A DNA stretch of 64,000 nt. Origin: an uncultured Flaviramulus sp. (GTDB taxonomy: Bacteria > Bacteroidota > Bacteroidia > Flavobacteriales > Flavobacteriaceae). Location of the stretch: NCBI GenBank assembly GCA_947501105.1, contig CANMUP010000003.1:124001-188000 (forward strand), written 5' to 3'. Each line of letters starts with the position of its first letter. Within the stretch, counting starts at the first letter, position 1. Under the pieces are notes generated by a model, which was given only the letters and a program-made list of their open reading frames with translations, searched no databases and was not told the origin of the DNA. Both the position numbers and the translations under genes were made by a program. Positions 10,403-42,926 of this stretch are shown piece by piece.

Positions 10403-11809
10403 ATGCAATCAAACAAAATTTCTTTAAAACAATTCATTCAATATTTTAAAATTGCTGTAACAGGCAAAGAGCAAGAGTTTACCACAGGTAGTATTAGGCG
10501 CGCCGTTTTCATGCTTTCTATACCTATGATTTTGGAAATGCTCATGGAATCTATTTTTGCAATAGTAGATATCATGTATGTATCACAAGTTAGTGTAAAT
10601 GCTGTTGCTACTATTGGTTTAACCGAGTCTGTTATTACATTGGTATATGCTGTAGCCATTGGGTTAAGTATGGCAGCAACCGCAGTTGTAGCAAGACGCG
10701 TGGGAGAAACTGATATAAAAGGTGCGTCAAATGCAGCGGTTCAAGTTATATTTTTAGGAGTATTTGTAGCCGCAATTATTAGTGTTATTGGTATAATATA
10801 TCCAAAGGAAATATTAAGCCTTATGGGAGCTGAACCCGATCTTATTGCTGAAGGTTATGGCTATACTCAAGTGCTTTTAGGCGGTAATGTAACCATAATG
10901 TTACTGTTTTTAATTAATGCCATTTTTAGAGGCGCAGGTGATGCATCGGTAGCGATGTGGACATTAATTTTATCAAATGGGCTAAACATTATTTTAGACC
11001 CGATATTTATTTTTGGCTTCGGACCAATTCCAGCTTATGGTGTTGAAGGCGCAGCAATTGCAACAACTATTGGTCGTGGTACTGCAGTTTTATTTCAATT
11101 AATTATTTTGTTTTACGGGTTTAGTAAAATAAAAATAGCGGTTAAAGACTTAGTGCTACGAGTTGGTATAATGATGAATTTAATAAAAGTGTCATTAGGC
11201 GGCATTGGGCAGTTTTTAATAGGAACATCGTCTTGGGTGTTTTTAATGCGTATTATGAGTGATTTTGGTAGCGAAGTTTTAGCTGGTTATACCATTGCCA
11301 TTCGAGTGATGATGTTTACGCTTATGCCTGCATGGGGAATGAGTAATGCAGCTGCTACTTTAGTTGGGCAAAATTTAGGAGCTAAAAAACCAGAACGTGC
11401 TGAAAAATCTGTTTGGAAAACAGGAAAATATTCTGCCATTTTTATGGGGCTTGTATCTATTATTTATTTGGTGTTTGCACCACAAATTATTCTGTTTTTT
11501 AATGCCACACCAGATGTTGTTAAGTATGGTAGCTTGTGTTTGCGTGTTATTGCAGCTGGCTACATTTTTTACGGTTATGGAATGGTAGTTATTAACGCAT
11601 TTAATGGTGCTGGAGACACCAAAACGCCAACATATATAAACTTTGTATGCTTTTGGTTGTTACAATTACCATTTGCTTATGTGATGGCTATAACATTAGA
11701 TTTTGGACCATCTGGAGTATTTTGGGCTATTACTTTAGCCGAAGTTTTAATAGCAGTTATAGCAATTATTTGGTTTAAAAAAGGGAATTGGAAAAGGGTA
11801 GAGGTTTAG
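10403..11809 (+). CDS. MATE family efflux transporter
   Basis: 12-TM MatE-like protein, two repeats. Confidence 0.9.
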   Translation: MQSNKISLKQFIQYFKIAVTGKEQEFTTGSIRRAVFMLSIPMILEMLMESIFAIVDIMYVSQVSVNAVATIGLTESVITLVYAVAIGLSMAATAVVARRVGETDIKGASNAAVQVIFLGVFVAAIISVIGIIYPKEILSLMGAEPDLIAEGYGYTQVLLGGNVTIMLLFLINAIFRGAGDASVAMWTLILSNGLNIILDPIFIFGFGPIPAYGVEGAAIATTIGRGTAVLFQLIILFYGFSKIKIAVKDLVLRVGIMMNLIKVSLGGIGQFLIGTSSWVFLMRIMSDFGSEVLAGYTIAIRVMMFTLMPAWGMSNAAATLVGQNLGAKKPERAEKSVWKTGKYSAIFMGLVSIIYLVFAPQIILFFNATPDVVKYGSLCLRVIAAGYIFYGYGMVVINAFNGAGDTKTPTYINFVCFWLLQLPFAYVMAITLDFGPSGVFWAITLAEVLIAVIAIIWFKKGNWKRVEV

Positions 11810-11817
11810 CTTTTTGT

Positions 11818-12219
11818 GTCATTTCGACGATAGGAGAAATCACATCATTTAAATTTATTAAATTAGGAATATGCTTCATAATTATTTTGTTTACATTGTT
11901 GCCAATCAATATCGAACAACATTGTATATTGGTGTAACGAATAATATTCAAAAAAGAATTTCTCAGCATTATTTTGATAGTGAAAATTCAAAAAAATCTT
12001 TTGCAGGCAAATATGGGTGTATTTATTTAGTTTATTATGAAGGTTTTCAATACCCAAAGGATGCTATTGTAAGAGAAAAAGAATTAAAAAAATGGCGAAG
12101 AGAAAAGAAAAACAATCTTATTTATGAGTTTAACCCAAAGTGGGAAACGTTAAATAATCAAGTTATTTGAACTACTTCAAATATAAATAATGAGACCTCT
12201 CACATGCGTTCGAGGTGAC
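11818..12219. mobile_element. Putative GIY-YIG/REP element with imperfect inverted ends
   Basis: Left GTCATTTCGACGATAGGAGAAATCACATCATTT (11818-11850); reverse complement of right end (12188-12219) reads GTCACCTCGAACGCATGTGAGAGGTCTCATTATT. Confidence 0.6.
11871..12170 (+). CDS. Small GIY-YIG nuclease domain protein
   Basis: MLHNYFVYIVANQYRTTLYIGVTNNIQKRISQH...YEGFQYPKDAIVREKELKKW. Confidence 0.9.
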   Translation: MLHNYFVYIVANQYRTTLYIGVTNNIQKRISQHYFDSENSKKSFAGKYGCIYLVYYEGFQYPKDAIVREKELKKWRREKKNNLIYEFNPKWETLNNQVI

Positions 12220-12236
12220 TAATCGTAAAAATTACA

Positions 12237-13124
12237 ATCATCAAAACAAACTCAAAATTTCACCCAAAAAACAAACACAAATCCGGATACGATTTAGATA
12301 CTTTGTGCGAAGTCTATCCAGATTTAATACCTTTTGTGTTTGTAAACAAATATGAAACTAAAACTATTGATTTTGCAAACCCAAAAGCTGTAAAAGCACT
12401 TAATAAAGCGCTGTTGTTTAAGCATTATAATGCTAATTATTGGGAGTTTCCTGATATTAATTTGTGTCCACCAATTCCTGGCAGAGTAGATTATATTCAT
12501 TATTTGGCAGATTTACTTAAAGCTTCAAATTTAAATGAAAATATTAGTGTTCTAGACATTGGAACTGGAGCAAGTTGTATATATCCTATTTTGGGACAAG
12601 CTGAATATAATTGGAAATTTGTAGCATCAGATATCGATAAAACATCTTTAAAGTATGCTCAAAAAATCATTAATCAAAATAAATTAATCAGTTATATTTC
12701 TTTAAGACTTCAAAATGATTCAACGCAAATATTTAAAGATGTTATAAAGGCTGAAGATAAGTTTTCGGCATCAATGTGTAACCCACCGTTTTATAAATCT
12801 GAAGAGGAAGCTTTAGAAACCACTAAAAGAAAATTGAAAGGTTTAAAAAGGGGAGAAGTAGAGGTTGTTAGAAATTTTGCAGGATCTCAAAACGAATTAT
12901 GGTATAAAGGAGGCGAAAAAGCGTTTATTCATAATTATTTATATGAAAGCTCTTTATTTAAAGAACAATGTATTTGGTTTACCACATTAGTATCTAAAAA
13001 AGATTTGATAAAAGGAATTTATAATTCTTTAAAAAAGTTAGGAGCAACCGACATCAAAACTATAAATATGGGACAAGGCAACAAAATATCGCGCATTGTA
13101 GCATGGACATTTTTAACTAAATAA
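12237..13124 (+). CDS. rlmF: 23S rRNA (adenine(1618)-N(6))-methyltransferase RlmF; start codon uncertain
   Basis: DIGTGASCIYPI, NPPF motifs; in-frame N-terminus HPKNKHKSGYDLDTLCEVYPDL upstream of the tracked TTG start at 12303; no ATG/GTG/TTG after the stop at 12216. Confidence 0.85.
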   Translation: MIKTNSKFHPKNKHKSGYDLDTLCEVYPDLIPFVFVNKYETKTIDFANPKAVKALNKALLFKHYNANYWEFPDINLCPPIPGRVDYIHYLADLLKASNLNENISVLDIGTGASCIYPILGQAEYNWKFVASDIDKTSLKYAQKIINQNKLISYISLRLQNDSTQIFKDVIKAEDKFSASMCNPPFYKSEEEALETTKRKLKGLKRGEVEVVRNFAGSQNELWYKGGEKAFIHNYLYESSLFKEQCIWFTTLVSKKDLIKGIYNSLKKLGATDIKTINMGQGNKISRIVAWTFLTK

Positions 13125-40366: not shown

Positions 40367-40455
40367 CGTCATTACGAGGAGCATAGCGACGTGGTAATCT
40401 TTTTTATATTTACGAGATTACCACAACAAATTTATTAATTTGTCTCGCAATGACG
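40367..40455. repeat. REP-like palindromic element, copy 1
   Basis: CGTCATTACGAGGAGCATAGCGACGTGGTAATCT...AGATTACCAC...AAATTTATTAATTTGTCTCGCAATGACG. Confidence 0.75.
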
Positions 40456-42809: not shown

Positions 42810-42926
42810 CGTCATTGCGAGATAAATTAATAAATTTAAAGCCTGTACTGAGCGCAGTCGAAGTATGGCAATCTGTTAAAAAGGAAGAGATTACCACGTC
42901 GCAAAAAAATGCTCCTCGTAATGACG
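42810..42926. repeat. REP-like palindromic element, copy 2 (inverted relative to 40367)
   Basis: CGTCATTGCGAGATAAATTAATAAATTT...AGATTACCACGTCGCAAAAAAATGCTCCTCGTAATGACG. Confidence 0.75.

Follow-up and report, generated by a model that had tools for sequence, protein, structure and literature searches.

Inverted GTC-tagged REPs around a single-domain GIY-YIG nuclease gene in Flaviramulus: a candidate nuclease-driven mobile unit of a widespread kind

The 64,000-nucleotide stretch analysed in this study (the window; G000:C3:124001-188000 of a 4.19 Mb Flaviramulus genome) contains a short GIY-YIG nuclease gene enclosed by two inverted, tagged palindromes. We consider it quite probable that this unit is one of a widespread kind of element, in which a COG2827/UvrC-N-like nuclease gene lies within inverted GTC-tagged REPs, recognises its own REP and spreads with the help of the host. 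The pairing of GIY-YIG genes with REPs is general and class-specific, a result that is well supported by genome comparison and goes beyond what the original prediction had guessed.

The whole unit occupies positions 11818-12219 on the forward strand. Its left REP (11818-11841, +; GTCATTTCGACGATAGGAGAAATC) combines an outward GTC tag with the hairpin ATTTC..GAAAT and belongs to the class GTCA..TCGA. The nuclease ORF (11871-12170, +) encodes a single-domain protein of 99 aa (PF01541, E=2.2e-15) and is placed between the gene of a MATE transporter (10403-11809) and rlmF. The right REP (12194-12219, -; as reverse complement GTCACCTCGAACGCATGTGAGAGGTC) also carries an outward GTC tag, together with the hairpin ACCTC..GAGGT and the core of the left REP. 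On direct reading both ends are present and inverted, as had been predicted. The predicted spacing needs correction: the left end begins 8 bp and not 9 bp past the MATE stop (11809), and the gap of about 20 bp between each end and the ORF holds on the left, whereas the right gap is about 15 bp. The left end reads TGTC+ATTTC, which corresponds to a CGTC/TGTC tag followed by a stem starting with AT; the right end, AGTC+ACCTC, is a variant of this.

Local alignment of the left end with the reverse-complemented right end gave a score of 17, compared with 9.2 +/- 1.8 for dinucleotide shuffles (p=0.0014), so that the objection of a similarity no better than in shuffled sequence falls away. Among 332 control ORFs of the source genome (400 kb), no more than 3 reach the same similarity. 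Between the two stems, ATTTC/GAAAT and ACCTC/GAGGT, the changes are paired, and the core GTCA..TCGA...GAGA..T is common to both ends. Each window hairpin is weak when taken alone (-3.3 and -3.4 kcal/mol, z -0.8 and -1.2), and the evidence for the window REPs is therefore comparative. An Rfam search with the window unit gave no match.

Searching the source genome with the window protein revealed four clear small GIY-YIG ORFs. Inspection of their flanks, a check proposed together with the prediction, showed that 4/4 are bracketed by inverted repeats, and these belong to four different palindrome classes: GTCA..TCGA for the window unit (L001), CGTCATTCTGAGC / GTCATTGTGAGGAG for L002, TCATCCTGAACTAG..AGGATC with a decayed tag for L003, and GTCT..TCGAGCG for L004. 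The ends are also repeated elsewhere, as the window-class REP has six strict copies in this genome. The expected non-autonomous, end-only copies were found: L009, L010 and L012/L016 have window-class ends as inverted pairs. Other classes, too, occur end-only as singles or pairs in a 400-kb sample of the source genome, and one such pair (C1:251806/251874) repeats both of the differing ends of L002. Within the window, end-only REPs of the GTCATTACGAGGAG class, which is kin to the L002 class, are located in opposite orientation at 40368-40399 (+) and 42889-42925 (-), about 2.5 kb apart.

The association was quantified in 175 related ORFs of Bacteroidota, comprising window-clade relatives from named genomes (about 80 relatives of the window protein; 83 ORFs in the hairpin test) and an all-clade draw (about 90 ORFs, 92 tested) from the 81 of 121 family genomes with a match. 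A hairpin was counted if it had an outward GTC tag and a stem starting with A or T, with at least 5 perfect pairs or 6/7, at a distance of up to 220 bp; the 332 control ORFs were all taken from 400 kb of the window's own genome. Tagged outward hairpins on both sides were detected for 56/83 window-clade ORFs (Fisher 2e-41) and for 44/92 ORFs of the all-clade draw (Fisher 2e-27), each against 6/332 controls. This corresponds to 48-67% of the relatives versus 1.8% of the controls, and shuffled flanks reached 2.5%. With a stricter detector demanding a perfect stem of 5, the rate for both sides was 56% against 0.6% for controls, and outward GTC was more frequent than other tags (2-10%) or the inward orientation (18%). 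For about one quarter of the all-clade draw, the detector registered no tagged hairpin on the left or on the right. The hairpin test with control ORFs replaced an alignment of left and right inverted repeats against mismatched locus pairs; the latter was dropped because the REP class is common to all loci of a clade, which makes mismatched pairs a poor control.

The REPs that flank a gene are inverted, tagged (with GTC, not GTAG) and cognate to the clade of the enzyme. Left and right cores agree within a unit in 56% of cases versus 20% after permutation, and protein distance correlates with REP-core distance (Mantel rho 0.53; maximum of 300 permutations 0.10). Same-clade units of different genomes share their core in 74% of comparisons, different-clade units of one and the same genome in 14% (29 pairs). 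Mapped on a tree of 141 proteins, the REP class changes 23 times compared with 63.8 times when shuffled, with 0/200 shuffles as low; since the tree is built on few columns and many of its forks are weak, the clustering counts as support and not as proof. ORF and ends together occur in 80 window-clade loci that fall into 62 groups by two-sided synteny, or 42 if any flank homology counts. Shared descent of one locus can thus not explain the covariation of clade and core, and vertical descent with conservation in all relatives, the outcome named as speaking against a mobile unit, disagrees with so many unrelated contexts. Since every nuclease clade has its own REP core, the covariation strongly suggests that the nuclease recognises its cognate REP.

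A strict pattern of the window class, GTCATTTCGA..GAGAAATC, was counted in 121 genomes, with REPs at the units themselves included in the counts. Of the genomes that have the window clade, 9/9 contain the pattern (mean 15.3), compared with 21/112 of those without the clade (mean 0.54; MWU 1e-10), so that cognate palindromes are about 28x more numerous where the clade occurs. The reversed control pattern matched once over all 121 genomes. An independent class, GTCATTCCTGC..GCAGGAATC, behaves in the same way, occurring in 11/14 genomes with its clade (mean 7.2) and in 21/107 without that clade (mean 0.82; 1e-7), and non-cognate combinations of clade and REP are weaker than cognate ones. REPs and REP dimers are therefore dispersed in step with the enzyme. 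Some genomes are rich in REPs and yet without the cognate clade, namely G038 and G064 for TCGA, and G091, G113 and G116 for CCTGC. In G038, where no GIY-YIG unit was detected, an orphan tandem array (L252, G038:C9:74400-76400) has a period of 138 bp, with GTCATTTCGA alternating with GTCATATCGA.

These data bear on the reading that the nuclease is a bystander or regulator that does not spread the palindromes, with the REPs being general 3'-end or terminator elements, or the gene's own operators or terminators. REPs do prefer intergenic positions (PMC3733652), the window unit comes directly after a stop codon, and the protein could regulate its own gene by binding a palindrome. Generic terminators, however, would not be expected to match the nuclease clade inside one genome or to have a genome-wide copy number tied to it, and such flanks are found at just 1.8% of other ORFs; we regard this explanation as unlikely.

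The predicted compact GIY-YIG/REP unit is supported, as are such ends on other GIY-YIG ORFs, end-only copies and unit-less orthologous sites. In Azospirillum lipoferum, a unit of the form REP dimer - gene - REP dimer splits sufB from sufC, which are adjacent in 4 unit-less relatives, and a Shinella unit (L243) likewise follows sufB. The units of A. lipoferum (L194) and Shinella sp. PSBB067 (L243) are of differing REP class, and apparently two independent insertions took place after sufB. An end-only dimer (L224) is missing in 3 relatives whose flanks are about 90-92% identical. In Sinorhizobium meliloti a full unit adjoins an internally deleted copy (L193, Ak57, ~455-620) that keeps both REPs and the last nuclease codons; such deletion is a plausible route by which end-only, non-autonomous forms originate. 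Tandem-duplicated units are present in G111 and G015. The Azospirillum, L010 and L012 sites yielded neither a clean target-site duplication nor an exact junction; the intergenic flanks of the empty sites have diverged. No target duplication was seen in the L224 junctions. A classical IS element was rejected as an explanation, because the protein has no transposase domain and the junctions examined have no target duplication.

Within the genus of the window, the REP dimers found at L010 and L012 are absent from genome G003. This genome also lacks the L002 unit and has in its place a scar that fits a deletion between two CTTTTTC repeats, and in this case the unit looks to have been lost in G003 rather than gained in the source genome. 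At the MATE-rlmF locus, the expected empty sites were encountered in part: G001 is empty and G002 and G003 are likewise without the unit, but a Flaviramulus contig (L043) carries a unit at the same site. Considering this contig together with the loss of L002, the window unit may be old at its position and its lack in relatives may partly reflect loss. In G003 and G002 (L020, L021) the MATE-rlmF spacer has an unrelated ORF of about 180 aa (MKIGRQFNKLNKSEYIYYID...) at the site of the unit.

The window protein has the domain and the conserved residues of the GIY-YIG superfamily. The active-site residues Y8, Y19, G21, R29, H33, E69 and N88 are intact and conserved in more than 90% of about 173 relatives, and dN/dS of about 0.06 indicates purifying selection on the ORF. 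PF01541 was the only domain found; neither Y1 HUH (PF01797) nor another transposase domain was detected in the window protein. Its AlphaFold model (pLDDT 94) is a bare GIY-YIG domain, for which a fold search returned UPF0213 (1zg2) as nearest, followed by Slx1 and UvrC domains, all of them weak matches with none below E=0.001.

The weak fold likeness to Slx1 and to the UvrC domain would agree with a structure-selective repair nuclease that resolves REP cruciforms and is retained for relieving the replication blocks that REPs cause, with the REPs being spread by something else. A Caulobacter study, in which three COG2827 genes of unknown role were described, suggested repair for them, one having an SOS box (PMC1839093). 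An enzyme of this kind, however, need not be bracketed by its own substrate or move with it among 42-62 contexts, nor are several clade-specific copies per genome needed, and we judge a repair role to be improbable. Still less probable is site-specific homing, by which the nuclease would cut the unit-less allele at a conserved site and homologous repair would copy the unit in. Introns and free-standing genes are established to home via GIY-YIG enzymes, and sufB-sufC holds a unit in two genera, as does MATE-rlmF in two genomes. Most units nevertheless stand in unrelated contexts and end-only copies are dispersed; homing at one site was rejected on the basis of 62 both-flank contexts among 80 loci.

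The preferred reading, a nuclease that mobilises its own REP, includes cutting and nuclease-driven REP spread, both of which we infer. The enzyme would recognise a REP or REP dimer in its hairpin or cruciform form, in all likelihood as single-stranded DNA of the lagging strand, and would nick the REP close to the GTC tag. Host repair or replication would then insert the cut segment again or copy it, and copies would spread in this way, with the full unit as autonomous form and the end-only dimers as non-autonomous, REPIN-like form. As single-stranded DNA, the Azospirillum REP dimers form strong folds (-29 and -40 kcal/mol, z -5.3 and -9.0), which single window REPs do not. GIY-YIG enzymes act by DNA hydrolysis, with no covalent intermediate. 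Unlike in the RAYT system, the joining step must therefore be supplied by the host.

Relatives outside Bacteroidota were collected by tblastn in plasmid records, several of which are chromosomes filed as plasmids, and the flanks of 17 loci were read by eye with no control set. CGTC REPs on both sides were seen in S. meliloti (CGTCATCCTCGGGCTTGACCCGAGGATCCA), Rhizobium, Shinella, Neorhizobium, Azospirillum (CGTCATCCCCGCGAAGGCGGGGATCCAGG), Novosphingobium (CGTCGCCCCGTGCTTGACACGGGGC), Sphingobium (CGTCACCCCGGGCTTGACCCGGGGTCC) and Aeromonas; the alphaproteobacterial units combine the tag CGTC with a stem starting with AT. Two loci have REPs on one side only (L240, L241), and L198/L238 are flanked by a CTCATTCCTGTG variant. 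A Neisseria relative sits among dRS3-type repeats, which is weaker evidence because these are abundant in Neisseria, and a cyanobacterial relative (Planktothrix) lies among TGTCATTCTGAG repeats. The latter gene (L245), on a Planktothrix agardhii plasmid, is situated with its TGTCATTCTGAG repeats between an MmeI-type restriction gene and the DISARM gene drmA. In Sphingomonas paeninsulae (L246), tagged REPs are missing around a GIY-YIG gene of a different type that is located between rnc and era, a natural negative case.

A survey of CGTC REPs in five phyla, among them Neisseria dRS3 and rickettsial RPE-4/RPE-6, stated that they "apparently lack a dedicated transposase" and did not mention GIY-YIG (Di Nocera et al. 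2013, PMC3733652). The units described here share with these REPs the tag, the stem starting with AT, head-to-head dimers and the CCA tail; rhizobial and azospirillum units fit, also with respect to stems of 8-9 bp and loops of 4-5 nt, whereas in the window REPs the perfect stem measures 5 bp and the centre is longer. The published families are without an assigned enzyme, and Novosphingobium aromaticivorans, one of the CGTC-REP species, carries a GIY-YIG unit. Our best reading assigns COG2827-type GIY-YIG nucleases to CGTC-tagged REPs as their cognate enzymes, in the part that RAYT has for GTAG REPs, and the family is likely the missing partner of these repeats, whose means of spreading had been unknown. 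We found no literature linking GIY-YIG genes to REPs in a search that left subscription papers and preprints outside, so that priority is not certain.

The RAYT/TnpA-REP system with its GTAG tag (REPtrons, REPINs; PMC2817692, PMC3116915, PMC8266576) is similar in several respects: a small single nuclease gene is enclosed by tagged REPs in inverted orientation, REP dimers occur elsewhere, each of several clades has its cognate REP, and positions are mostly intergenic. It differs in its enzyme, a Y1 HUH tyrosine transposase, and in its tag, which is (C/T)GTC here; moreover, GIY-YIG chemistry cannot form the covalent phosphotyrosine intermediate. As the defining HUH transposase is absent, the GIY-YIG/REP unit is not a member of this system, though RAYT-REP-like in its working. 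The idea that RAYT drives the GTC-tagged REPs, with the GIY-YIG ORFs as passengers, can practically be dismissed: a RAYT gene exists in the source genome, but the palindrome on its flanks (CCCCCGCTAGCGCTCGTC..GACGAGTG) is another one, unrelated to those of the GIY-YIG units, and the survey never found CGTC REPs beside RAYTs (PMC3733652). Two REP systems thus stand side by side in the source genome. At L018 (G000:C3:718214), the palindrome CCCCCGCTAGCGCTCGTCTGTGACGAGTG occurs around a RAYT-like gene (locus ~900-2050) and in the end of a neighbouring gene.

GIY-YIG homing endonucleases (I-TevI, I-BmoI; seg/mob-type genes) have the catalytic domain in common with the unit, and their genes, too, behave as mobile elements, but the nuclease of the unit is single-domain with no separate DNA-binding module, and the unit is REP-bracketed in dispersed contexts instead of occupying one homing site. 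The single-domain UPF0213/COG2827 proteins (1zg2, 1ywl) and the UvrC N-domain agree in fold and length; in the literature they figure as repair-like or as proteins of unknown function, and the papers found do not report an association with REPs.

On balance, we lean towards single-domain GIY-YIG nucleases being dedicated mobilisers of CGTC REPs in several phyla, a second, independent machinery that would use hydrolytic hairpin cleavage and host repair with no tyrosine transposition. There is a reasonable chance that the GIY-YIG/REP system merits a category of its own. If the nucleases do mobilise these REPs, a role could be given to a very common family that carries no annotation beyond "GIY-YIG nuclease family protein" or "UvrC-like", and REP systems would have arisen with two unrelated nuclease folds. 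A candidate enzyme can now be named per REP class, with the prediction that the REP core is set by the enzyme clade, and the question is directly testable with the 99-aa protein and a 30-nt oligonucleotide.

A minor observation concerns the neighbouring gene. The rlmF frame beside the unit (window 12220-12310) has no ATG before its conserved part, either in the window or in G003, and a non-ATG start is seemingly used, whereas rlmF in G001 has an ATG.
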